Positions 2,660-11,593 of a stretch of DNA of 11,613 nt are shown piece by piece. The DNA comes from Verrucomicrobiota bacterium. GTDB taxonomy: Bacteria > Verrucomicrobiota > Kiritimatiellia > Kiritimatiellales > Tichowtungiaceae. The stretch lies in NCBI GenBank assembly GCA_020853375.1, contig JADYZA010000104.1:1-11613 (forward strand), written 5' to 3'. Under the pieces are notes generated by a model. That model ran no database searches and had not been told where the DNA came from. It was given only the letters and a program-made list of their open reading frames with translations. A program made the position numbers and the translations under genes. Position 1 is the first letter of the stretch. Every line of letters starts with the position of its first letter.

Positions 2660-2680
2660 TTTTTCCAAGGGTTGGAAAAA
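2660..2680. repeat. Dispersed palindrome, copy 1 (exact; 9-bp arms)
   Basis: The core TTCCAA-GGG-TTGGAA lies at 2663-2677. The dyad extends outward to 9-bp arms (TTTTTCCAA/TTGGAAAAA) around a 3-nt centre. It starts 4 nt after the chorismatase-like stop codon. It is the first of three copies between that gene and radC. No T-run follows the hairpin, so it is not a typical terminator. Confidence 0.85.
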
Positions 2681-2702
2681 ACAGCAAGACGCCATATCTT
2701 GA

Positions 2703-2719
2703 TTTCCAATGCTTGAAAA
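2703..2719. repeat. Dispersed palindrome, copy 2 (one mismatch)
   Basis: TTCCAA-TGC-TTGAAA at 2704-2718 differs from the TTCCAANNNTTGGAA consensus by one base. The flanking pair T2703/A2719 keeps the symmetry. It is the middle copy of the cluster upstream of radC. Confidence 0.7.
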
Positions 2720-2724
2720 GAAAT

Positions 2725-2741
2725 CTTCCAAGGCTTGGAAG
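2725..2741. repeat. Dispersed palindrome, copy 3 (exact)
   Basis: TTCCAA-GGC-TTGGAA lies at 2726-2740, and the flanking pair C2725/G2741 extends the dyad. It ends 20 nt before the ATG at 2761, so it lies in the leader of radC. Confidence 0.85.
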
Positions 2742-2760
2742 GAACGGCTAAGTTTCTTCC

Positions 2761-3540
2761 ATGATCGGGAAGCGAGTCAACGAAGAGGGCGGAGTTTACA
2801 GTGTGCGGGCCAAAGACCTGCCCAAAGCGCTTCAACCGCGCGAAAAATTCGACCGTCTCGGCCCGGAAAACCTTTCGGAATCCGATCTTCTCGCATTGAT
2901 TCTCCGCACCGGAACGAAAGGACTGAACGTTGTCGATCTGGCCGAAACGATTCTGATTCAGTACGGCTCGCTCAGCGCGCTTTCCAAGGCATCGGCGGCG
3001 GAACTGAAAAAAGATTTTCCAGGCATTGGAAAAGAGAAGGCCAAACTGCTCAAAGCCGCGCTCGAGATCGGTCGGCGGCTTGTACAGGAAAACGTTGGCG
3101 AACGCCCGCATATTGCTTCTCCGGAGGAAGCGGCCGCCGTTTTGCGTGAACGCGCCCGCAGTCTGGATCGCGAAGTTTTCTGGGTGCTTCTACTCGATAC
3201 AAAAAACCGGCTGATGGCGCCGCCGTTCGATGTCTCAAAAGGAACGCTCAATTCCAGTCTGGTGCATCCCCGCGAGATTTTTAAACCGGCCATTCAGCAC
3301 TCCGCCGCCAACGTTATTCTGGCGCATAACCATCCGTCGGGCGATCCCTCGCCGTCTTCCAACGATATCCGCATCACGAAAAAGCTGATTGAGGCTGGCA
3401 AAACCATGGAAATCAAAGTGCTCGATCACTTGATTATCGGTCGCAAAACCCGCGATGGCGCCACCGACTTCTTCAGTATTCGCGAAAGCGGACTGGCTGA
3501 ATTCGACGGAGCCCAGAAAGAACTTGAATGCGGGCTCTAA
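2761..3540 (+). CDS. radC: RadC family JAB/MPN-domain protein
   Basis: RadC-family (UPF0758) protein of 259 aa in this form. An N-terminal segment KDLPKALQPREKFDRLGPENLSESDLLALILRTG leads into a helix-hairpin-helix element (FPGIGKEKAK, residues ~86-95). The C-terminal MPN/JAMM domain carries the metal-site signature HNHPSGDPSPSSND (HxH...S..D). The name comes from an E. coli allele later explained otherwise, and the cellular role is unsettled; a metal-dependent hydrolase fold is what the sequence supports. I give ATG 2761 as the outer start, but its nearest purine-rich site is about 16 nt away. GTG 2803 has GGAG at 2791-2794 and begins right at the family-typical N-terminus (MRAKDLP..., 245 aa), so it is the more likely start. 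Three palindromes precede the gene, and the riboswitch promoter probably lies in its 3' end. Confidence 0.9.
   Translation: MIGKRVNEEGGVYSVRAKDLPKALQPREKFDRLGPENLSESDLLALILRTGTKGLNVVDLAETILIQYGSLSALSKASAAELKKDFPGIGKEKAKLLKAALEIGRRLVQENVGERPHIASPEEAAAVLRERARSLDREVFWVLLLDTKNRLMAPPFDVSKGTLNSSLVHPREIFKPAIQHSAANVILAHNHPSGDPSPSSNDIRITKKLIEAGKTMEIKVLDHLIIGRKTRDGATDFFSIRESGLAEFDGAQKELECGL
3016..3032. repeat. Palindrome-like match inside radC (one mismatch)
   Basis: TTCCAG-GCA-TTGGAA at 3017-3031 matches the dispersed dyad with one change, with TTTTCCA/TGGAAAA arms. It encodes FPGIGK, which is the conserved helix-hairpin-helix of RadC, so this copy may be a protein-driven coincidence rather than a repeat insertion. 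Confidence 0.4.
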
Positions 3541-3551
3541 ATGGCAATAAT
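3524..3551 (+). promoter_or_regulatory. Probable sigma-70 promoter of the riboflavin operon
   Basis: TTGAAT (3524-3529), a 16-nt spacer and AATAAT (3546-3551) resemble -35 and -10 boxes and overlap the radC stop region. Transcription would start near 3558, immediately before the first base of the FMN aptamer P1 stem at 3559. That fit is the main support. Confidence 0.5.
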
Positions 3552-3558
3552 CCGTCCC

Positions 3559-3664
3559 ATCTTCAGGGCAGGGTGAAATTCCCGACCGGCGGTAAAGTCC
3601 GCGAGCCGCAAGGCAGATGCAGTGTGATTCTGCAACCGACAGTAGAGTCTGGATGAAAGAAGAT
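3559..3664 (+). ncRNA. FMN riboswitch (RFN element) aptamer
   Basis: The conserved RFN blocks appear in order: AUCUUCAGGGCAGGGUG at the 5' end, AAAUUCCCGACCGGCGGU, AGUCCGCGAGCC, then AACCGACAGU and GUCUGGAUGAAAGAAGAU at the 3' end. P1 closes by AUCUUC (3559-3564) pairing with GAAGAU (3659-3664). It binds FMN and controls the operon starting with ribBA 77 nt downstream. A terminator follows, so regulation is probably by transcription attenuation. TTCAGGGCA (3562-3570) inside the aptamer is exactly complementary to TGCCCTGAA (3686-3694), which is the likely antiterminator. Confidence 0.97.
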
Positions 3665-3673
3665 AAATGAATG

Positions 3674-3726
3674 CGAGAACCTTTCTGCCCTGAAAGACCT
3701 TTTGGTTTTCAGGGTTTTCGCGTTTT
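3674..3726 (+). terminator. Riboswitch expression platform: intrinsic terminator with competing antiterminator strand
   Basis: CCCTGAAAGACC (3688-3699) pairs with GGTTTTCAGGG (3704-3714) with one bulged G. The tract TTTTCGCGTTTT (3715-3726) follows. GCGAGAA (3674-3680) can also pair with TTTTCGC (3715-3721), including a G-U pair, giving a longer base stem. The 5' arm CCCTGAA (3688-3694) can instead pair with the aptamer's own TTCAGGG (3562-3568). FMN binding would hold that aptamer strand in place and so favour termination. Confidence 0.75.
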
Positions 3727-3740
3727 AAGGACGGTTGATT

Positions 3741-4946
3741 ATGAGCAAGATGTTATTCGATCCGATGGATGAGATTCTGGACGCGCTACGGCGCGGCGAA
3801 ATGGTTTTGATCACGGACGATGAAAGCCGGGAGAACGAAGGCGATGTGATTTGCGCCGCCGAGACCTGCACGCCGGAACAGATTAATTTTATGATCACTC
3901 ACGCCCGCGGACTGGTTTGTGTTCCAGTCACTGCGGAGCGGGCCGCGCATCTGGGACTGAAGCGGATGAATGTTTCGCACGAAGGCGATAAATTCAAAAC
4001 CGCGTTCACCATTTCCGTCGATGCCGCCGACAGCACGACCGGAATCAGCGCGGCGGAACGGGCTCATACCGTCCGTATGCTCGTTGATAAAAATACGCGC
4101 CCGGAACAACTGGGGTGCCCGGGACACATCTTTCCTCTCATCGCGCTGCCCGGCGGTGTGCTGACAAGAGCAGGTCATACCGAAGCGACGATTGATCTGA
4201 CCCGCATGGCCGGGCTTCAGCCCGCCGGTGTGATTTGCGAAGTGACGAATGACGATGGCACGATGGCACGTTTGCCGGAGCTGATCAAATTCGCGAAGAA
4301 ACACGGATTGAAAATGACATCCGTCGCGGAAATCGCCCGATACCGCTACGTCAACGAAAAGCTGGTGAATATGGAGCGGCAGGTGAAGATGCCGACAGAG
4401 TGGGGCGACTTCACCCTGCGAATCTATAGTTCCGTCGTGGACGATAAAGACCATCTGGCGCTGTTTATCGGACATCCGACTCCGGAAAAACCGAATCCGC
4501 TGGTGCGAGTTCATAGCGAATGCCTCACCGGCGACGTGTTCGGGTCACAGCGCTGCGACTGCGGCCCGCAACTTCAGCACGCGATGCAGATGATCGGTGA
4601 GTACGGCTATGGCGCGCTGGTTTATATGCGGCAGGAGGGCCGTGGAATCGGGCTGACCAAAAAAATTCACGCCTACGAGTTGCAAGATCAGGGACTGGAT
4701 ACCGTTGAGGCGAATGTGAAGCTTGGATTCGCTCCAGACCTGCGCGACTACGGAATCGGCGCACAGATACTCAAAGATTTACAAATGACGCAAATCCGGC
4801 TCATTACCAATAATCCGGCCAAGATCGAGGGGCTGGATAAATACGGCATTGAGATTGTCGAACGGGTGTCAATTGTGCTTCCTTCAACGCCGCACAACAC
4901 GCGTTACATGAATACGAAACGCGATAAAATGAAACACATGCTGTAG
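3741..4946 (+). CDS. ribBA: Bifunctional 3,4-dihydroxy-2-butanone-4-phosphate synthase / GTP cyclohydrolase II
   Basis: This protein makes both precursors of riboflavin: L-3,4-dihydroxy-2-butanone-4-phosphate from ribulose-5-phosphate, and 2,5-diamino-6-ribosylamino-pyrimidinone phosphate from GTP. I take ATG 3741 (401 aa), with AAGGA at 3727-3731 nine nt upstream. The in-frame TTG 3735 has a poorer context. The RibB half (to ~205) has DDESRENEGD (26-35), TTGISAAERAHTVR (~98-112) and GHTEAT (145-150). The RibA half has the zinc ligands C261, C272 and C274 (SECLTGDVFGSQRCDCG), then RQEGRGIGL and RDYGIGAQIL. All catalytic motifs of both halves are present. The usual RPGH before FPL is CPGH here. 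It is the first gene of the FMN-riboswitch operon, and ribH starts 11 nt after its stop. Confidence 0.97.
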   Translation: MSKMLFDPMDEILDALRRGEMVLITDDESRENEGDVICAAETCTPEQINFMITHARGLVCVPVTAERAAHLGLKRMNVSHEGDKFKTAFTISVDAADSTTGISAAERAHTVRMLVDKNTRPEQLGCPGHIFPLIALPGGVLTRAGHTEATIDLTRMAGLQPAGVICEVTNDDGTMARLPELIKFAKKHGLKMTSVAEIARYRYVNEKLVNMERQVKMPTEWGDFTLRIYSSVVDDKDHLALFIGHPTPEKPNPLVRVHSECLTGDVFGSQRCDCGPQLQHAMQMIGEYGYGALVYMRQEGRGIGLTKKIHAYELQDQGLDTVEANVKLGFAPDLRDYGIGAQILKDLQMTQIRLITNNPAKIEGLDKYGIEIVERVSIVLPSTPHNTRYMNTKRDKMKHML

Positions 4947-4957
4947 AGAATGAACCT

Positions 4958-5437
4958 ATGGGAAAAGGCATTTCAAAAAAAGAGCTGGATGCAAGCGGAC
5001 TGAAGTTCGCGATCGTCGTCAGTCGCTTCAACGAAGAATTGACCCGGCAGCTGGCGGACGATGCCTTCCAATGTTTGGAAGAAAACGGCGCCAAGGTTGC
5101 GGACATTGGAATTTTTCAGGTGCCGGGCGCGTATGAAATCCCGGTGGTGGTTAGCGAGCTGGCAAAAAGTCGAAAATATGACGCGCTGATCGCGCTGGGT
5201 GTGGTGGTGGAAGGCGAAACACCGCATGCGCAGATGATCGGCGATTCAACCGGTATCGCATTGCTTGATATTGCCCGTGAACACGGCGTCCCGGTGATCA
5301 ATGAGATTGTCGGAACGCGCAACTGGGAACAGGCTGTGGCGCGTTGCACCCGCAGTAGAACAAGTCGCGGCTGGTACGCCGCGGAGGCCGCCATTGAAAC
5401 CGCGAATATTTTGAAAACCATAAAAGGATCTAAATGA
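4958..5437 (+). CDS. ribH: 6,7-dimethyl-8-ribityllumazine synthase (divergent active site)
   Basis: Lumazine synthase condenses the RibA/RibD product with the RibB product to form 6,7-dimethyl-8-ribityllumazine. The 159 aa match the family length. SRFNEELT (22-29), VPGAYEIP (55-62), LGVVVEGETPH (80-90) and the C-terminal RGWYAAEAAIE are recognisable. H90 corresponds to the catalytic-region His, and R129 to the phosphate-binding Arg. Several usual positions differ by my alignment: the His is followed by AQ rather than (F/Y)D, PVIFG(V/I) reads PVINEIVG (N115), and the usual NKG Lys is R137. Residues 37-41 (FQCLE) are encoded by an exact copy of the dispersed palindrome. The stop overlaps the nusB start (ATGA). 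Position in the operon makes the RibH assignment firm. Confidence 0.92.
   Translation: MGKGISKKELDASGLKFAIVVSRFNEELTRQLADDAFQCLEENGAKVADIGIFQVPGAYEIPVVVSELAKSRKYDALIALGVVVEGETPHAQMIGDSTGIALLDIAREHGVPVINEIVGTRNWEQAVARCTRSRTSRGWYAAEAAIETANILKTIKGSK
5065..5081. repeat. Dispersed palindrome inside ribH (exact)
   Basis: TTCCAA-TGT-TTGGAA at 5066-5080, extended by the C5065/G5081 pair. It is in frame with ribH and encodes F-Q-C-L-E in the helix after the SRFN segment. Confidence 0.8.
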
Positions 5438-5880
5438 CTAAAGTGACGGGTCGCCGACAGGCGCGTGAGTGGGCAGTGCAGTTTTTATTTCAGACGGAGT
5501 TTAATCCCGACGATCTGGAGTTGGCTTTGATTGATTTCTGGAATGATCCTGAGAAGAAACCTGCGGAGCGGGATCTGACCTACGTCAACGAAGTGGTGCG
5601 CGGTGTTCTTGAGAAACAGCGCGAGCTCGACCGGACAATTTCAAAGTATGCGCAAAACTGGGACATCGACCGCCTCGGTGTGCTCGACCGGATTGTGATG
5701 CGCTTGGCGACCTACGAAATGCTTTTTCGCAACGACATCCCTCCGGTGGTTTCAATTAACGAGGCGGTCGAAATCGCCAAAGCATACATCAGCAAAGAGT
5801 CCGGCCGTTTTGTTAACGGGGTGCTCGACCGGATTCAGAAGGAACTCACCCGGCCTTCGCGCACAAATACGCCGCAATGA
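5434..5880 (+). CDS. nusB: Transcription antitermination factor NusB
   Basis: NusB joins NusE (ribosomal protein S10) at boxA RNA in rRNA antitermination complexes. The 148 aa protein has the family N-terminus GRRQAREWAVQFLFQTEF, then NWDIDRLGVLDRIVMRLATYEML, and the C-terminal IPPVVSINEAVEIAKAYISKESGRFVNGVLDRI, covering the usual all-helical fold. ATG 5434 overlaps the ribH stop by four bases, with AAAAGGA at 5422-5428 as ribosome-binding site. Its own stop overlaps ribD in the same way. Linkage of nusB to ribH is common in bacteria. Here FMN would also be expected to influence nusB expression. Confidence 0.97.
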   Translation: MTKVTGRRQAREWAVQFLFQTEFNPDDLELALIDFWNDPEKKPAERDLTYVNEVVRGVLEKQRELDRTISKYAQNWDIDRLGVLDRIVMRLATYEMLFRNDIPPVVSINEAVEIAKAYISKESGRFVNGVLDRIQKELTRPSRTNTPQ

Positions 5881-6881
5881 TTTCTCACGAACCATTCATG
5901 CAACGGGCGCTCGCGCTGGCTCGGCGCGGCGAGGGGCTGACGCGGCCCAATCCGCCGGTTGGCGCGGTGCTGGTGCGGAATGGAAAGATCATTGCCGAAG
6001 GCTTTCACAAAAAGGCGGGCGGCCCGCATGCCGAGGTGAATTGTCTTAAGTCGGCAACCGGCGATCTGAAATCTGCAATTCTCTACGTGACGCTTGAACC
6101 TTGTTCAACGCAGGGTCTCACTCCGCCTTGCACTGAATTGATTCTGGCCTGCGGCATCCGCCGCGTGGTGATCGGCGCGAAAGATCCTAATCCGGTACAC
6201 GCCGGACGCGGTATCCGGATTCTGCGCCGAGCCGGGGTTGAGGTGACTACCAATGTCTGCCGGGCCGAAGCTGAGGCGTTGATTGCTCCGTTCGCCAAAC
6301 GCATTCTCACCGGAATGCCTTTTGTGACGCTTAAACTGGCTTCGACCCTTGACGGACGGATTGCGGACGCTTCCGGAAAGTCCAAATGGATCACCGGCCC
6401 GCAGGCGCGGGCGAAAGTGCAGGAGCTGCGCCGCTCCGCAGATGCCATTATGGTCGGTGCCGGAACGGTTCGCGCGGACAATCCATCGCTCCTGCCTCGC
6501 CCGGCCAAAGGTCGCGCGCCGTTACGCGTGGTGGTCGGCTCAACTCTTCAGGCCAATGCTAAAGTTCTGACGGATGAAGCCTCGCAGCGGACGCTGGTAA
6601 TGAATGGTCCGCTCAAGAAAATTCTGCGTGATCTCGGTAAGCATGGCGTGATGCACGTGCTGTGCGAAGGCGGCGGCGAGCTGGCTGGATCGTTGGTGCG
6701 CGCCGGGCTGGTGGATGAATTCGCGCTGTTTATCGCGCCGTCGCTGCTTGGCGGCGACGGGATTCCAATGGTTGGAAAAAAGGGGTGGCCACTGTTCGGA
6801 ATTCCGCTTTTAAATTTCCAGACCTTGGAAAAATGCGGAAAAGATGTTTTTATCAGAGCCGTACCGCTCGGGAGAAAATAA
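5877..6881 (+). CDS. ribD: Riboflavin biosynthesis deaminase/reductase RibD, shortened reductase domain
   Basis: RibD deaminates the pyrimidine produced by RibA and then reduces its ribosyl side chain with NADPH. The N-terminal cytidine-deaminase-like domain has TRPNPPVGAVLV, HAEV (H51, E53) and PC-STQGLT-PPC (C76, C85) for zinc; the family usually has a basic residue where L81 sits. The C-terminal reductase domain begins at PFVTLKLASTLDGRIAD and keeps SKWITG, GAGTVRADNPSL and CEGGGELAGSLVRAGLVDE. At 334 aa it is some 30 residues shorter than E. coli RibD. The shortfall lies between TLVM and LKKILRDLG, where about 25 residues normally form part of the Rossmann-like core. Two dispersed palindromes fall in its last 120 bp. 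ATG 5877 overlaps the nusB stop, and no clear Shine-Dalgarno site is visible. Confidence 0.94.
   Translation: MISHEPFMQRALALARRGEGLTRPNPPVGAVLVRNGKIIAEGFHKKAGGPHAEVNCLKSATGDLKSAILYVTLEPCSTQGLTPPCTELILACGIRRVVIGAKDPNPVHAGRGIRILRRAGVEVTTNVCRAEAEALIAPFAKRILTGMPFVTLKLASTLDGRIADASGKSKWITGPQARAKVQELRRSADAIMVGAGTVRADNPSLLPRPAKGRAPLRVVVGSTLQANAKVLTDEASQRTLVMNGPLKKILRDLGKHGVMHVLCEGGGELAGSLVRAGLVDEFALFIAPSLLGGDGIPMVGKKGWPLFGIPLLNFQTLEKCGKDVFIRAVPLGRK
6763..6777. repeat. Dispersed palindrome inside ribD, first copy (exact)
   Basis: TTCCAA-TGG-TTGGAA, read in ribD as part of I-P-M-V-G-K (residues 296-301). Unlike the other copies, the outer flanking bases (A6762/A6778) do not pair. Confidence 0.8.
6815..6831. 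repeat. Dispersed palindrome inside ribD, second copy (one mismatch)
   Basis: TTCCAG-ACC-TTGGAA at 6816-6830, extended by T6815/A6831, and encoding F-Q-T-L-E (residues 314-318). It lies 53 bp from the previous copy and in a different codon phase. Confidence 0.7.
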
Positions 6882-7510
6882 TGTTTACAGGGATTATTCA
6901 ACGGCTTGGAACGATTGTGGATGTGAAGATGCACGGCGCGGCCGGACGGGTTACGCTCAAACCGAGCCGTCCGTTCGATGCGCCGGTTAATCTGGGCGAC
7001 AGCATCGCCGTGAACGGAGCCTGCCTTACTGTTGCCGCGATCGAGGGCGCAAATTTTTGTTTCGATGTGCTCACGGAAACGTTTGATAAGACCAATCTCG
7101 GCGAAAAAGGGCCGGGCTCGGTGGTGAATCTGGAACGTGCGCTGGCGCTGGGCGATATGCTCGGCGGCCATATTGTGACCGGCCATGTGGACGGAACCGG
7201 ACGGGTTCGCCGGGTTGATCAGGTTGACCGCGATTGGAAGTTCGAGATCGAATGCGCACAGAACCTGCTTATGTTGATGGTGTCGAAGGGGTCGATCGCT
7301 CTGGACGGTATCTCTCTGACGGTTGCGGAACTCAAAAAGGACGCTTTTGTGGTTCATATTATTCCGCACACGCTGGAAGAAACCGACATGTCGGAGTTTA
7401 AACCCGGAACAAAGGTGAATTTGGAGGCCGACATTCTCGGAAAGCACGTACAGCGTATTCTCGAGTTTGGCGGAGGTCAGGATTATCGTGTCAGGTTTGA
7501 GAACAACTAA
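6881..7510 (+). CDS. ribE: Riboflavin synthase (alpha chain)
   Basis: This enzyme dismutates two molecules of 6,7-dimethyl-8-ribityllumazine into riboflavin and the RibA/RibD pyrimidine product. ATG 6881 is set by GGGAG at 6870-6874 (6 nt spacing), by the 1-nt overlap with the ribD stop (TAATG), and by the family-invariant N-terminus MFTGIIQ. The 209 aa contain the two lumazine-binding barrel repeats: GDSIAVNGACLTV with FDVLTETF in the first, and GSIALDGISLTV with VHIIPHTLEETDM in the second. GGHIVTGHVDGTG lies between them. The length and all the recognisable motifs are normal. The gene is also called ribC in some Gram-positive bacteria. Confidence 0.97.
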   Translation: MFTGIIQRLGTIVDVKMHGAAGRVTLKPSRPFDAPVNLGDSIAVNGACLTVAAIEGANFCFDVLTETFDKTNLGEKGPGSVVNLERALALGDMLGGHIVTGHVDGTGRVRRVDQVDRDWKFEIECAQNLLMLMVSKGSIALDGISLTVAELKKDAFVVHIIPHTLEETDMSEFKPGTKVNLEADILGKHVQRILEFGGGQDYRVRFENN

Positions 7511-7522
7511 TTAGGAGTCATT

Positions 7523-7894
7523 ATGGACCGGAAAAGAATTCTGCTCGTTGATGACGAAGAAGCCATTCGGAAAATGGTTCGTGTGATTTTGGGCGATGAA
7601 CTTTACGAGTTTGCCGAAGCGGGGAACGGGATGGACGCTCAAGTTCAGCTCGAAAAACAGCCGTTCGACTTAATTATCACCGATGTCATCATGCCGGATT
7701 GCGACGGGATTGAGCTGGTTATGGCCGTCCGCCGCAAACTGCCCGATATTAAAGTCATTGTGATGTCTGGCGGCGGACGGGTGCGCGCCGGTCACTATTT
7801 GGATCTCGCCGGGAAACTCGGTGCGGCCCGTGTTTTTGAAAAACCGTTCGACACGGCGGCGCTTCGGGCCGCTGTCCAGGAACTGCTTGTTTAA
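7523..7894 (+). CDS. Stand-alone receiver-domain (CheY-like) response regulator
   Basis: A single REC domain of 123 aa with no output domain. The acidic pocket D10-D11, the phospho-acceptor D54 (IITDVIMPDCDG), the switch S82 (KVIVMSGGG) and K107 (FEKPF) are all present, so it should be phosphorylatable. ATG 7523 has AGGAG at 7513-7517, 5 nt upstream. It begins 12 nt after ribE and ends 19 nt before pyrE, placing it in the riboflavin operon. No histidine kinase is in the window, so the partner is unknown. It could be a phosphorelay intermediate or act by protein-protein contact. Its link to flavin metabolism may be only co-transcription. Confidence 0.92.
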   Translation: MDRKRILLVDDEEAIRKMVRVILGDELYEFAEAGNGMDAQVQLEKQPFDLIITDVIMPDCDGIELVMAVRRKLPDIKVIVMSGGGRVRAGHYLDLAGKLGAARVFEKPFDTAALRAAVQELLV

Positions 7895-7913
7895 CCCCGG
7901 TAACAGGAAAACT

Positions 7914-8492
7914 ATGAAGGAAGCCGATCTGCTCAAACTCTTCGAAGACACTCAGGCGCTACTCAACGGACATTTTGAACTGCGCTCAGGACTTCACTCC
8001 AACCGTTTTTTCCAGTGCGCATTGCTTCTCCAGTATCCCCGCATCGCCGAACAGGTTTGCGGCGCGCTGGTTGAGAAAATGAAAACCGTTCTTGGCGCGT
8101 TGGAAATCGATACCGTCATTTCGCCTGCGCTGGGGGGGATTCCGGTCGGGCACGAAGTCGCCCGTGCTTTGGGTAAGCGCTTTATCTTCGCCGAGAAGAA
8201 CGCCGACAAAATGCTCACCATGCGCCGGTTCAAAATCGGGCAGGGCGAGCGGTTTCTGGTCGCGGAAGATGTGATTACTCGGGGCGGACGAGTTCAGGAA
8301 ACCATCGACATTGTCAAACAGCACGGCGGAATCGTTCACTCCGTCGGCGTATTGGTCAATCGTAGCGGCGGCAAGGCGAAGTTTGACTTCCCGACCGTCA
8401 GCCTGCTCGACATCGAGCCAGTCACTTGGGAACCCTCGGAATGTCCGCTTTGCAAAGAAGGACGGCTTCCTCTTGTGCACCCCGGAAGCTGA
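7914..8492 (+). CDS. pyrE: Orotate phosphoribosyltransferase
   Basis: PyrE joins orotate and PRPP to give orotidine-5'-phosphate in pyrimidine synthesis. The 192 aa begin at ATG 7914, preceded by AGGA at 7905-7908. Family features are GHFELRSGLHSNRFFQCALLLQYP near the N-terminus, ISPALGGIPVGHEVARALG, and the PRPP-binding segment LVAEDVITRGG (~115-125). The C-terminal CPLCKEGRLPLVHPGS is as in many bacterial short-form enzymes. The frame is open further upstream, but that part lies in the receiver gene and lacks a start with a ribosome-binding site. It is the last gene before a strong terminator, so it is probably the end of the FMN-controlled operon. Confidence 0.95.
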   Translation: MKEADLLKLFEDTQALLNGHFELRSGLHSNRFFQCALLLQYPRIAEQVCGALVEKMKTVLGALEIDTVISPALGGIPVGHEVARALGKRFIFAEKNADKMLTMRRFKIGQGERFLVAEDVITRGGRVQETIDIVKQHGGIVHSVGVLVNRSGGKAKFDFPTVSLLDIEPVTWEPSECPLCKEGRLPLVHPGS

Positions 8493-8514
8493 TCGGAAGC
8501 GGGCAAAAAGACGG

Positions 8515-8544
8515 AAAGGGCGGGCGATTTGCCTGCCCTTTTTT
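8515..8544 (+). terminator. Intrinsic terminator after pyrE
   Basis: AAAGGGCGGGC (8515-8525), loop GATTT and GCCTGCCCTTT form an 11-bp stem with one G-U pair. The stem runs into a T-run ending at 8544. It lies 22 nt after the pyrE stop and ends the riboflavin operon. The A-rich 5' side may let it act on the other strand as well. Confidence 0.9.
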
Positions 8545-8580
8545 CATCTTCTAGCGCCTCCATTATTCCCCAATTTTCTG

Positions 8581-8609
8581 TTGTCACCTCTCTGGATAGG
8601 GCTTATTCT
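8581..8609 (+). promoter_or_regulatory. Possible promoter of the zinc-ribbon gene
   Basis: TTGTCA (8581-8586), a 17-nt spacer and TATTCT (8604-8609) resemble -35/-10 boxes. They lie between the pyrE terminator and the ATG at 8649, where a promoter is expected. The -10 match is only moderate. Confidence 0.35.
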
Positions 8610-8648
8610 CCACGCTCATTTTTGTTCTTCAAATTGGAGTTTCTAGTT

Positions 8649-9353
8649 ATGGCGCATCCGCTCGAAGCACTTCTGGCATTGCAGGAAAAAGACCGCAAAA
8701 TCGCAAAACTTCAACGCGAGATCCGCGACATTCCGGCCCGTAAAGCGGACATCGACAAGCAACTCGAGGGCGCCAAAACCCGTCTGGCCGCCGCCCGTGA
8801 AGATCTTAAAAAAGTCACCGCCGACCTGAAACAACTCGAAGTTGAGGTTGGATCGCTTCGCGACAAGATCACGAAGTACAAACAACAGCAGATGGAGGCG
8901 AAAAACAACGAACAGTATCGCGCCTTCCTGCAGGAAATCGCCACTGCCGAAAAAGCCATTTCTGGTCTTGAGGATCGCGAAATGGTTCTGATGGAAAAAG
9001 CCGAAGCCGTCAAAGCCGTTATTACCGAGCGCGAAACAGAGCTCAAATCCGAAGAGGATGGCGTGAGCGAAGAAAAAGAAATGCTCAACGAACGCCTTCA
9101 GGAAGTTCAGGAAGACCTCGGCGCCATGCTCGCTGACCGCGGACGCATCACCTCAAACGTCAATCCGTCGCTGCTTTCCAAATACGAACGCCTCTTCAAA
9201 AACAAAGGCGACTTCGCCGTTGTTCAAGTTGAAGCAAATCATTGCTCCGGCTGCCACATGCGTCTGCCGCCGCAGGTCACCAACGACGCGCTCAATCCCG
9301 ACAAGCTCGTCATCTGCAACTTCTGCGGACGCATGCTCATCAACCTGCGCTAA
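8649..9353 (+). CDS. Coiled-coil / C4 zinc-ribbon protein (CT398-like)
   Basis: The 234 aa protein has a long, highly charged coiled coil over most of its length (about residues 10-180, rich in E, K, A and L). A C-terminal zinc ribbon follows: C199-x2-C202 (CSGC) and C223-x2-C226 (CNFC). This is the layout of the widespread CT398/zf-RING_7 family, whose members are thought to bind nucleic acid or act as scaffolds; no enzymatic role is established. ATG 8649 follows GGAG at 8636-8639 by 9 nt. The frame is open upstream, but that part covers the terminator and promoter region, so it is not used. It lies directly before rnpB on the same strand with no obvious terminator between, so read-through is possible. 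Confidence 0.9.
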   Translation: MAHPLEALLALQEKDRKIAKLQREIRDIPARKADIDKQLEGAKTRLAAAREDLKKVTADLKQLEVEVGSLRDKITKYKQQQMEAKNNEQYRAFLQEIATAEKAISGLEDREMVLMEKAEAVKAVITERETELKSEEDGVSEEKEMLNERLQEVQEDLGAMLADRGRITSNVNPSLLSKYERLFKNKGDFAVVQVEANHCSGCHMRLPPQVTNDALNPDKLVICNFCGRMLINLR

Positions 9354-9439
9354 GCATCCTTTTGGTGGAATGCGCCGCCTGTTCTGAGTTCACCGAAGGG
9401 CCGGATGCGTTCAAACGTGTTTTCAGATCACGCTCCGCC

Positions 9440-9456
9440 TTTCCAAACATTGGAAA
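9440..9456. repeat. Dispersed palindrome upstream of rnpB (exact)
   Basis: TTCCAA-ACA-TTGGAA at 9441-9455, extended by T9440/A9456. It is the only intergenic copy outside the radC leader, and lies about 42 nt before the 5' end of the RNase P RNA stem. The rest of the 144-nt gap shows no clear promoter or terminator. Confidence 0.85.
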
Positions 9457-9497
9457 ACTTCTCGCCATGGCGGGTGCCGATGCGTACCTTCCTCCTC

Positions 9498-9857
9498 CGC
9501 AGGCAGAGTGTATCGACCGCTCTTTGGTTCGCCAAGGGGAGGAAAGTCCGGACTCCGCAGGGCAGGACGTTCCGTGGTTAACGCGGAAACTCCGGTGCTA
9601 AATCGCCGGGGATGGAAAGTGCCACAGAAATTATACCGCCCTGAGGGCGCTTCGGCGCATCGAAGGGTAAGGGTGAAATGGTGGGGTAAAAGCCCACCGC
9701 TCCAAGGGTAACCGCGGAGGCAGGGTAAACCCCGTCCGGAGCAAGATCAAATAGGGAACAAGGAGCTGCCCGCTCCGCTTGAGTTCCGGGTTGATCGCAT
9801 TAGATAAATGGTCGACTCCTTCGGGAGAACAGAATCCGGCTTACCGCTCTGCCTGCG
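9498..9857 (+). ncRNA. rnpB: RNase P RNA, bacterial class A
   Basis: This is the catalytic RNA that trims tRNA 5' leaders. Conserved blocks occur in order: GAGGAAAGTCCGG (9539-9551), ACAGAAATTATACCG (9624-9638), GGTAAGGGTGAAA, the L15 loop context TGGGGTAAAAGCCCA that pairs with tRNA CCA, AGATAAATGGTCG (9802-9814) and ACAGAATCCGGCTTA (9829-9843). The ends are set by P1: CGCAGGCAGAGTG (9498-9510) pairs with CGCTCTGCCTGCG (9845-9857) with one G-U pair. The length of about 360 nt is typical. CTTTATTTTT follows P1 directly and may serve as the U-rich part of its terminator. A convergent gene ends 2 nt away. Confidence 0.98.
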
Positions 9858-9859
9858 CT

Positions 9860-10276
9860 TTATTTTTGCAGAGAGACCGCGCCTTTTCTTGGTGAAAATG
9901 GACATTCGATAAATGAATCATTTAGGATATTCACAGAAACATTTGCAGCCTCAGCCATCGTTTTGATAAGCGTTACAATGTTGTCGACGAGGCGTTCTGA
10001 TTGTCTGAGCTCGTCATGCATTTTCTTTAGCGCTGCAATAACTTTCGGAGAATCCGAGAAAACGATAAAAGCTTCATTTAGCGCTATAAATGGTTCTCCC
10101 TTTGCCTCGCATGGTACGACTGTGAGTAGATGTCGATTCCCTGCCAGACGACGCAAAACATCTCGCTTGAGTTTTTCCTTATCGTATTTTCTATAATGGT
10201 GGGCAGATACAAGAACTCCAATTATACCGGAAAGTAATGAGGCGATAAGAGTGACTACAATAGCAGCTGAATCCAT
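9860..10276 (-). CDS. Small membrane-anchored protein, AT-rich; resembles DUF6680
   Basis: The 138 aa protein has one N-terminal transmembrane helix (about residues 4-24, IVVTLIASLLSGIIGVLVSA), a basic patch (HHYRKYDKEKLKRDVLRR) and a soluble, mostly helical remainder. ALNEAFIVFSDSPKVIAALKKMHDEL and LIKTMAEAANVSVN...SFIECPF recall the DUF6680 pattern from memory; the family's role is unknown to me. ATG 10276 has AAGGAG five nt upstream (complement of 10282-10287), and TATAAA (complement of 10300-10305) could be its -10 box. Three 60-nt lines I counted inside it are about 35-42% G+C, against about 53-68% in two lines of neighbouring genes. That suggests horizontal acquisition. It converges on rnpB with a 2-nt gap. 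Confidence 0.75.
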   Translation of the reverse strand: MDSAAIVVTLIASLLSGIIGVLVSAHHYRKYDKEKLKRDVLRRLAGNRHLLTVVPCEAKGEPFIALNEAFIVFSDSPKVIAALKKMHDELRQSERLVDNIVTLIKTMAEAANVSVNILNDSFIECPFSPRKGAVSLQK

Positions 10277-10368
10277 TTCTGCTCCTTACGTATGTGATTT
10301 TTATAAGTACGATCAGAAAGTAGCTGAAAAGCCGGTTTCGGGAAAGGTTTTTGGCGGGAGAGATTTTC

Positions 10369-10426
10369 TGTAGGCCCGCTGTCCTCAGCGGGCGTTTTTT
10401 CGCCGGGTGGGGACACCCGGCCTACA
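10369..10426. repeat. REP-like inverted pair, family A (heads outward)
   Basis: Two copies of a ~26-nt unit lie in inverted orientation around a short T-run. Each begins TGTAGGCC and folds into an 8-bp hairpin. The first stem is GCCCGCTG/CAGCGGGC (10374-10393, loop TCCT). The second is GCCGGGTG/CACCCGGC (10402-10421, loop GGGA). TGTAGGC at 10369 and GCCTACA at 10420 are the outer ends. Read in the same direction the units differ at five positions, and four of these are two swapped C-G/G-C pairs within the stem. The first hairpin plus TTTTTT at 10395-10400 could also terminate plus-strand transcripts. Confidence 0.85.
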
Positions 10427-10452
10427 GTGGCGTTAATTCGCGGTTCTGTTTT

Positions 10453-10500
10453 CGGCTCATAGAGCCGACTCTACATTGTAGTGTTGGTTCTATGAACCAA
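10453..10500. repeat. REP-like inverted pair, family B (heads inward)
   Basis: CGGCTC-ATA-GAGCCG (10453-10467) and TGGTTC-TAT-GAACCA (10485-10499) are hairpins whose TGTAG heads meet in the middle as CTACA-T-TGTAG (10471-10481). Aligned as inverted copies, the two 24-nt units share 19 positions. Four of the five differences form two C-G to T-A pair changes in the stem. The hydE stop codon (complement of 10490-10492) lies inside the second hairpin. Confidence 0.8.
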
Positions 10501-11593
10501 TCTCATCGGTACGCTTCGCGTAATGCTTCGAGTCGCCCCACTGGTTGAAGCCGATGGTTTCGCCGATGGACTGGATTCGGCGGGTCAGGCATCCACGGCA
10601 CATCGATGAATTTTCATCCAAACATGGCTTGTTGTCGTAGAGCACATAGTTCGGGCGGAACTCGGTTTCGGTGACGTTCGGCATGATGACATTCGCACCG
10701 CATTTGAGCCCCATTTCGCGTCCGGAATGTTCCAATGCTTGGAGCGCGGTGGCGGCGGCGATATTGACGTCCTTCAGCACAATGCGCGTCACGGCGATCA
10801 TCTTGAGTCCGAGCGTCAGCGCGGCCCGTTTTTGTTCGTCCGTGTACGGCGGAATTGCTGCACCCATCGGCGTGTCGCGATGCGGGATGTACGGCCCCAT
10901 GCCAACCATATCCACGTCGAGTTCCTTCATGAACAGGATATCGTTAACCAGATCGTCAATCGTCTGGCCGGGCAGTCCCATCATCACGCCGGTGCCGACC
11001 TGATAGCCGGTCTTTTTGAGCAGGGCGAGGCAGTTTTTGCGCACTTCAAAGTTGTGATCGGCCGGATGGAGTTTGCGGTACAGCGCCGGATTGGTGGTTT
11101 CGATGCGGAGCAGATAGCGGTGTGCGCCCGCTTCGCGCCAGCGGCGGTAGGTTTCTTCCGTCTGCTCGCCGAGCGACAGCGTGACGCCGAGTTTGCCGTC
11201 CGTGGCCGCTTTAATCCGCCGAAGCACCCGTTCAATCAGTTCGATATAAGCCACGTCCTGCCGCTCGCCGGACTGAATCACGACCGAGCCGTATTCGTTT
11301 TCAAACGCCCAGACCGCTTCGCGTACCATTTCCTCTTCGTCCATCTGGAAGCGCTTCACGTTCGTGTTGCTCTTACGGATGCCGCAGTAATAACAGTCCT
11401 TGATGCAGATATTGCTGCACTCAATGATGCCGCGGAAATAGGCGACCTTGCCGACGTGCTTCGCCTTCACCCGGTAGGCGCAGTCGTACAGAGCCGGCAA
11501 CTCCGCCGGATCGGAAACCTCCAGCAGAGCCTTTATTTCCGCAGACGTGAGTTCCTGTTCCTGATCCACCTTTTCTAAAATCTGACGAATCAT
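10490..11593 (-). CDS. hydE: [FeFe]-hydrogenase maturation radical SAM protein HydE
   Basis: HydE is a radical SAM enzyme that helps build the diiron subcluster of [FeFe]-hydrogenase together with HydG and HydF. The SAM-cluster motif is C63-x3-C67-x2-C70 (CIKDCYYC) after RGIIECSN. The second-cluster motif C324-x7-C332-x2-C335 (CLDENSSMCRGC) has the spacing known from Thermotoga HydE, which separates it from BioB and PylB. Other motifs are VVIQSGERQD, LSLGEQTEE, RIETTNPALY and GVMMGLPGQT. I take ATG 11593 (367 aa), with GGTGA a few bases upstream. GTG codons at 11605 and 11602 are possible alternatives near the window edge. A one-mismatch palindrome encodes LQALE at residues 284-288. No hydrogenase, hydF or hydG is in view. 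An anaerobic fermentative lifestyle is implied. Confidence 0.93.
   Translation of the reverse strand: MIRQILEKVDQEQELTSAEIKALLEVSDPAELPALYDCAYRVKAKHVGKVAYFRGIIECSNICIKDCYYCGIRKSNTNVKRFQMDEEEMVREAVWAFENEYGSVVIQSGERQDVAYIELIERVLRRIKAATDGKLGVTLSLGEQTEETYRRWREAGAHRYLLRIETTNPALYRKLHPADHNFEVRKNCLALLKKTGYQVGTGVMMGLPGQTIDDLVNDILFMKELDVDMVGMGPYIPHRDTPMGAAIPPYTDEQKRAALTLGLKMIAVTRIVLKDVNIAAATALQALEHSGREMGLKCGANVIMPNVTETEFRPNYVLYDNKPCLDENSSMCRGCLTRRIQSIGETIGFNQWGDSKHYAKRTDEIGS
10729..10745. repeat. Dispersed palindrome inside hydE (one mismatch)
   Basis: TTCCAA-TGC-TTGGAG at 10730-10744, with G10729/C10745 extending the dyad. Read on the minus strand it encodes L-Q-A-L-E, the same reading phase as the FQxLE copies of ribH and ribD. 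Confidence 0.65.

Follow-up and report, generated by a model that had tools for sequence, protein, structure and literature searches.

The 11,613-nucleotide stretch of DNA analyzed here (the window; contig C104 of a host genome of 1.55 Mb, or 1,546.5 kb, in 230 contigs) contains repeated copies of a 15-bp palindrome, TTCCAAGGGTTGGAA, and these copies belong to a real and strong genome-wide system of sites. Within our sample of the phylum the motif is confined to the class Kiritimatiellia, and neighboring copies are mostly separated by near-integer numbers of helical turns. The interpretation that we favor, at a probability of about 0.55, is that the copies of TTTTCCAANSNTTGGAAAA are cooperative, same-face sites of a putative dimeric DNA-binding protein with an architectural role across the chromosome; the palindrome system probably serves a chromosome-organizing protein. 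An earlier note on this DNA had listed a dimeric-protein site, a cruciform or hairpin, and a mobile repeat as possible explanations, and had preferred a genome-wide role or a selfish repeat to an operon-specific operator. The dimeric site and the architectural role have become the best reading, on the strength of helical phasing, the lack of promoter bias in genome G012 and in genomes G159 and G227 taken together, and the even spread of sites in G012, and the motif is indeed not operon-specific; the hairpin and the mobile repeat were not supported. The motif system has apparently not been described so far, judging from the open-licence literature on the motif, on palindromes of the class, on the nucleoid, and on binding motifs.

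Under the proposed mechanism, the putative dimeric protein would occupy up to about a thousand TTTTCCAANSNTTGGAAAA sites per chromosome. Dimers at neighboring sites would share one face of the helix and bind cooperatively, with three turns (31/32 bp) preferred and spacings of two, four, five, or more turns also used; two-armed palindromes at a same-face spacing of mostly three turns are the layout that cooperating dimers require. The likely job would be performed chromosome-wide: the protein would bend or wrap DNA and would mark or insulate stretches of several kb, in contrast to a switch for one set of operons. A bolder version, which we offer only tentatively, is a sequence-specific chromatin of Kiritimatiellia, in which the dimeric protein on same-face arrays at near-regular intervals of several kb would segment the chromosome, and in which sites in coding DNA would shift amino acids.

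Abundance in the host genome and the window

The host genome contains 233 exact copies of TTCCAANNNTTGGAA (151 per Mb) and none of the reversed control; the window, with 5 in 11.6 kb, is about three times denser than the genome average. A 193-kb host sample, composed of the window and 20 stretches picked for holding the motif and enriched to that extent, held 46 exact copies against 0.028 under an order-2 Markov model, so the genome-wide excess over a Markov background that the earlier note had proposed as a check was borne out. Among 90 palindrome arms of the same composition, the next best reached 1 copy in this sample. The five exact and four one-mismatch copies reported previously for the window are all correctly placed:

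2663..2677, unstranded: exact palindrome TTCCAAGGGTTGGAA, intergenic, first of three sites 5' of radC
2704..2718, unstranded: one-mismatch copy, 41 bp past the 2663 site (about 4 helical turns)
2726..2740, unstranded: exact palindrome, 22 bp past the 2704 site (about 2 turns)
3017..3031, unstranded: one-mismatch copy within radC, over the peptide FPGIGKE in a helix-hairpin-helix stretch
5066..5080, unstranded: exact palindrome within ribH
6763..6777, unstranded: exact palindrome close to the 3' end of ribD
6816..6830, unstranded: one-mismatch copy, 53 bp (5 turns) past the 6763 site
9441..9455, unstranded: exact palindrome, intergenic, its end 44 bp ahead of the RNase P RNA gene
10730..10744, unstranded: one-mismatch copy within a radical SAM gene

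Two more copies, each with two mismatches, start at 395 and 6897. The resulting 11 window copies at up to two mismatches compare with a mean of 0.65 and a maximum of 4 in 200 dinucleotide shuffles of the window, which upholds the excess over chance claimed before. The copy inside radC at 3017 may be a product of chance plus coding constraint.

Helical phasing

Phasing was absent from the earlier note, and the window itself has spacings of 41 and 22 bp (2663-2704-2726) and 53 bp (6763-6816). In general, neighboring sites lie mainly 31/32 bp apart, and also 21/22, 41, 52/53, 62/63, and 93/94 bp apart, with other spacings that likewise approach multiples of 10.5 bp. In the 25 motif-bearing genomes chosen for a count, exact pairs numbered 1,712 at 31/32 bp compared with 7 at 25-27 bp, and two of these genomes had no exact 31/32-bp pair. 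A periodogram of all pairs (16-320 bp, eight sets, 218 pairs) peaked at 10.50 bp in the 5-40 bp range with a power of 116; the peak persisted for pairs more than 40 bp apart (power 54) and more than 70 bp apart (power 27), and pairs of coding sites in three genomes peaked at 10.45 bp (power 15.5, n = 46). Pairs in these periodograms are not independent, and adjacent distances alone were tested separately at 10.5 bp. They were phased in the host genome (p = 5.8e-6, n = 28; p = 0.027 at 36 bp or more, n = 15), in G081 (p = 1.4e-7, n = 26; host and G081 together at 36 bp or more, p = 1e-6, n = 33), and in G012 (p = 3e-51, n = 134, nearly all at 31/32 bp). Phasing beyond about 330 bp was not seen in the pooled data. 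On three G012 contigs, counted at up to one mismatch, the arrays comprised 33 single, 45 double, 19 triple, 8 fourfold, and 1 sixfold. One out-of-phase pair, 27 bp apart with a near-identical spacer, occurs in two genomes of family f2 (G035:C7:107285 and G383:C1:3148914) and looks like a conserved exception.

Spread along the chromosome and placement relative to genes

Arrays in G012, which has the highest copy count (about 253 per Mb), are more evenly spread than chance. Its clusters (at most one mismatch) are separated by mean gaps of 4.4-4.9 kb and median gaps of 4.2-4.7 kb, with coefficients of variation (CV) of 0.50, 0.45, and 0.65 on contigs C102, C1, and C56. Compared with random intergenic regions, the evenness had P values of <0.0002 (C102), 0.0008 (C1), and 0.026 (C56), and under a null weighted by intergenic length of <0.0002 (C102), 0.005 (C1), and 0.09 (C56). 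For C102, the gap CV of 0.44-0.50 stood against 0.85-0.90 in the intergenic nulls, and 0 of 5,000 draws were as even. Against a uniform null, two shorter pieces of G012 gave P = 0.35 and 0.036. Outside this genome, signs of evenness were weak or lacking; G227 gave P = 0.004 with one mismatch allowed and 0.16 for exact copies.

Genes were called with a codon-usage script, which performed poorly for G081 (53% coding) and for a mixed set (20% coding), so their coding and intergenic splits were not used. Coding DNA makes up 88% of the bases in the host sample and holds 31 of its 46 exact copies, and intergenic DNA is about 4.5 times denser in sites. The coding copies are nevertheless far in excess of the mean of 1.05 and the largest value of 6 obtained in 300 synonymous-codon shuffles; the palindrome is kept at the nucleotide level in coding DNA. 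These coding copies have no reading-frame preference (12/8/11), and sites are roughly even along gene length. On three G012 contigs (220, 160, and 83 kb), the exact copies divide into 98 intergenic and 24 coding ones.

Such placements bear on whether the sites serve a conventional global transcription factor as multi-site operators across a very large regulon, which we consider unlikely. Helical phasing is typical of multi-site operators, three sites lie upstream of radC, where three congeners of the host keep a degenerate site, and coding sites in G159 and G227 favor the 150 bp upstream of starts (0.14 of 35, compared with 0.06 of random coding positions); the host genome also has the upstream bias described below. 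However, exact sites in the G012 sample favor the first 100 bp after stop codons (0.63 vs 0.39 of random positions) and not the 100 bp upstream of starts (0.40 vs 0.43), for which G159 and G227 likewise have no bias (0.31 vs 0.33). Convergent intergenic regions, among those of at least 40 bp, are the most often occupied in G012 (14/26, compared with 47/148 tandem and 13/38 divergent). The location of two-thirds of the exact host sites (31/46) inside genes, spread over gene length, and the assorted genes bordered by the arrays, among which ribD and abundant families recur, also speak against an operator function and agree with the previous claim that no single operon is served.

Site anatomy and the hairpin question

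The 15-mer is preferentially preceded by T and followed by A, with T at position -1 in 0.60 of sites in the host and 0.80 in G081 and in G012. The center triplet varies, as reported before, yet its middle base is C or G in 44/46 host-sample sites, and in 52/53, 137/139, and 383/388 exact sites in other, partly overlapping sets. Preferred centers, read on either strand, are GCC in G012 (82/122) and ACC (13/46) and ACA (7) in the host sample; TCA is second in a mixed sample (11/64). In one-mismatch copies, the commonest change is an A-to-G substitution at either inner A.

As the earlier note had counted, 8 of the 9 window copies have a complementary next outer base pair. Over the 46 host sites, however, complementarity was 0.50 compared with 0.41 expected (p = 0.08), so it mostly reflects the T/A flank preference, and the idea that symmetry rather than sequence is kept there did not hold for this pair in the host genome. 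The second outer pair is complementary more often than expected in G081 (0.55 vs 0.43, p = 0.016) and in G159 and G227 (0.47 vs 0.31, p = 0.012). At the inner center pair, complementarity is depleted in the host (0.09 vs 0.26, p = 0.004) and in G081 (0.19 vs 0.30, p = 0.046) and enriched in G159 and G227 (0.43 vs 0.29, p = 0.012). A pooled set of many species has excess complementarity at the inner pair and the first two outer pairs, as mixing species of differing preferences would produce.

The arms could pair as a stem with a 3-base loop, and a DNA cruciform or an RNA hairpin, such as a terminator or processing element, would fit the enrichment after stop codons in the G012 sample, the inner-pair excess in G159 and G227, and the second-flank excess there and in G081. 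We give this explanation hardly any credence. The depletion of complementarity at the inner pair of the host genome speaks against a hairpin, and G081 has the same depletion; the first flank pair of the host is not significantly more symmetric than its composition predicts; the stem ends in A with no U run; an Rfam scan of four sources placed no family over the sites; and a hairpin would give no reason for phasing on DNA. Intrinsic curvature from phased A-tracts was dropped on reasoning only, the T and A tracts being about 1.5 turns apart within a site.

Distribution across genomes

The search covered 387 genomes of the phylum, sampled evenly from a larger set (131 in Kiritimatiellia and 256 outside). 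Motif-rich genomes, with 14-1339 copies, made up 36 of the 131 Kiritimatiellia, host included, and the other 95 had 0 to 7; none of the 256 genomes outside the class exceeded 5 copies. Within the class the distribution is patchy. Six other members of the host genus have 62 to 778 copies; in family f2, which belongs to the same order as the host, ten genomes range from 1 to 1177; and in family f10 two genomes of genus g16 have 459 and 411 copies and six genomes of g17, g12, and g60 have 0.

Lone phased pairs in motif-poor genomes occur next to restriction-modification proteins (L174, 1332-12228; L173, 4000-4045). In G038, two pairs surround a block that encodes ResIII, N6_N4_Mtase, ParB_N, and HARE-HTH proteins; one pair in G294 adjoins an HSDR_N protein. 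Because restriction-modification-type genes lie alongside, the pairs in G038 and G294 fit import from motif-rich relatives; that of G267 has PIN and AdoHcyase proteins nearby instead. Phased arrays are also found on three viral-contig records (among L167-L170; for example at 650, 681, 712, and 753 in L168), and elements of these hosts may share the sites.

Conservation in orthologs and the origin of copies

The 53-bp pair in ribD (6763/6816) is present at the same place, with at most one mismatch per site, in G032, G081, G130, G159, and G227, the position of its first site being shared with congeners and family f2. In a codon alignment of 15 genomes, the RibD peptide LPNFGK is encoded as CTT CCA AAC TTT GGA AAA in G159, G227, and G035, and as CTG CCG AAT TTC GGG AAA, without the palindrome, in motif-poor G050; motif-poor G087 has another peptide. 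At the second ribD site, most motif-bearing genomes encode FQxLE (exceptions are G247, with 640 copies and FKSVE, G127, and G303), and motif-poor ones FTSVE and FESME. Apparent protein conservation, such as that of FQxLE in RibD, can stem from DNA-level constraint and calls for caution. The ribH site (5066) is exact in G032, has one mismatch in G159, G227, and G247, and is not kept in G081. Sites in both genes align with motif-poor orthologs without insertions or deletions (indels), a comparison confined to these two genes, with intergenic arrays outside it; judging from these alignments, the ribD and ribH sites were apparently gained or lost by point mutation, under constraint at the DNA level. 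Eight coding sites of G159 were conserved in G227 (P = 0.0006; 0.88 mismatches compared with 2.64); two genes hold seven of these sites. Upstream of radC, the low-copy congeners G003, G029, and G130 keep a two-mismatch site, its left half intact, at the same distance as the 2726 copy; low exact counts within the genus may therefore in part reflect blurred sites.

These comparisons also concern the possibility of a selfish or mobile short palindrome. REP/BIME elements are numerous short intergenic palindromes that occur in groups, their copies sharing sequence and accompanying Y1 transposases. Arrays between genes in any orientation, a patchy copy number, and the presence of the Y1 transposase family in 30/34 genomes tested in the class would suit an element of the REP/RAYT kind, as would a seven-site array of G090 (L044, 7196-7241) in which two neighboring spacers are identical, a sign of local duplication. 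Unlike REP/BIME copies, those described here have mainly their arms in common: by eye, most spacers are unrelated, and centers differ as well. The RibD and RibH sites arise without indels, and the Y1 family (Y1_Tnp, PF01797), rejected as a candidate, does not track the motif, being without a match in the rich genomes G151 and G053 and limited to two weak matches in G012. A mobile palindrome, as the earlier note had entertained, is thus highly improbable.

A further alternative is an iterated palindrome like HIP1 of cyanobacteria, which would arise and persist without a structural protein, through biased mutation or repair linked to a DNA methyltransferase. HIP1 is a contiguous 8-mer that recurs genome-wide and is gained and lost between relatives, being low or nearly absent in some of them, and HIPs number about 1000-2000 per Mb with a matching methyltransferase (PMC4390886); it propagates via nucleotide substitutions, according to the title of a paper cited there (PMC4390886). 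The points in common are one strongly dominant palindrome far over expectation genome-wide, its gain and loss, with 62 to 778 copies among the six other genus members, and RibD and RibH copies that differ from motif-poor orthologs by substitutions rather than insertions. Unlike HIP1, the present motif is gapped, spans 15 bp, and occurs about 150 (host) to 250 (G012) times per Mb, in phased arrays, and a local repair bias would not be expected to produce helical phasing. A search for a replacement palindrome in samples of three motif-poor genomes found no arm above 4 copies. We regard this origin as quite doubtful.

Results weighing against the proposed architectural protein

Several results count against the architectural interpretation. 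Family f2 is an exception to the phasing, which is weak or missing there: adjacent distances were not significantly phased in G159 (p = 0.27, n = 15) or G227 (p = 0.06, n = 13), and six f2 genomes had 23 pairs at 31/32 bp compared with 6 at 25-27 bp. The test of even spread relies mainly on one genome, G012, in which contig C56 is borderline under the length-weighted null (P = 0.07-0.09); evenness was not significant in G159 (P = 0.69 and 0.27) or in three host contigs (0.24-0.88). In the host, 12 of the 15 intergenic exact copies fall in the 100 bp ahead of a start, a stretch that holds 35% of random intergenic positions; this keeps a promoter role possible and favors a global regulator. The reverse conservation test, from G227 to G159, was not significant (P = 0.066; 7 sites, of which one lay in a misaligned stretch). 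Finally, no binder was found; six tested families fail to track motif richness.

Candidate binders

Each family was tested by its presence in motif-rich and motif-poor genomes chosen from the 387-genome sample. Lrp/AsnC (PF01037) is present in 63/65 genomes, rich and poor alike. Of 30 loci around the AsnC gene of the class, 27 lack any site at up to one mismatch, and in the remaining 3 no site lies near the gene; by eye, the AsnC recognition helix is not common to motif-rich genomes. An altered specificity of the one Lrp/AsnC protein could still make it the binder. HU/IHF (PF00216) occurs in 35/35 genomes, with 2-4 each. NrdR (TIGR00244) occurs in 50/50, rich and poor, with one match in 49 of them; G115 has a second, short fragment, and G225 and G338 have partial matches only. 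YceH (PF04337) was tested because an exact pair of sites, 32 bp apart, lies directly upstream of a YceH (DUF480) gene in L114 (792-1521), with centers 16 and 48 bp from the gene. It was found in 27/50 genomes and is missing from the rich G065, G090, G104, G148, G162, and others, and is therefore not a general binder. Small proteins common to motif-rich loci, compared by eye, yielded no convincing DNA-binding candidate.

ParB_N (PF02195) was present in 33/34 genomes, mostly one each. The sites matS and parS, and those of Noc, are dispersed palindromes for chromosome-organizing proteins, far fewer per genome. Unlike the case of ParB/Noc-type sites, no extra ParB-like protein tracks motif richness here; extra copies occur in rich (G118, G090, G174) and poor (G050, G038, G225, G068) genomes.

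Comparison with cooperative regulators

Lrp-type regulators bind 15-bp sites (PMC4046817, PMC4977709) spaced by two or three turns on one face and wrap DNA (PMC2995911). The present arrays resemble the multi-site operators of Lrp/AsnC proteins such as Ss-LrpB and BarR in their 15-bp (semi-)palindromes, same-face clusters, and intragenic sites (PMC2995911, PMC4046817, PMC4977709), and the matching spacing is found here, with 31/32 bp dominant and 21/22 bp also used, weakly so in f2. They differ in number, hundreds of near-perfect copies compared with the 21 loci of the BarR profile, and in that the cognate protein fails to track the sites (63/65 genomes; 27/30 loci without a site). NrdR binds two boxes 15-16 bp apart, three turns center to center, and does so best when the number of turns is an integer (PMC12051234). 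Here, similarly, 16/17 bp separate 15-bp sites whose centers are 31/32 bp apart; unlike NrdR boxes, which belong to ribonucleotide reductase operons, these sites flank assorted genes, and motif-rich genomes have no extra paralog. By analogy, the mechanism may work like the cooperative binding of Lrp-type regulators and NrdR, while membership in either family is not supported.

Phased sites that number up to more than 1000 per genome and are lost or blurred in close relatives amount to a natural experiment on the gain and loss of architectural sites. If the proposed reading holds, a DNA-binding protein that has yet to be named should exist in this class, few members of which are in culture, and it becomes testable whether a bacterium maintains protein-bound chromosome segments at regular intervals.

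Other features of the window and host genome

An FMN riboswitch (RF00050, 117 bits) lies at 3555-3668 (+) of the window, upstream of ribBA, and is followed by the gene order ribBA-ribH-nusB-ribD-ribE (nusB and ribE were named by eye). The segment at 9500-9859 (+) is a class A bacterial RNase P RNA (243 bits), 44 bp past the palindrome at 9441. Another contig of the host genome (L017) carries a tmRNA at 7889-8245 (-) and a SAM-I/IV riboswitch at 12321-12429 (-).

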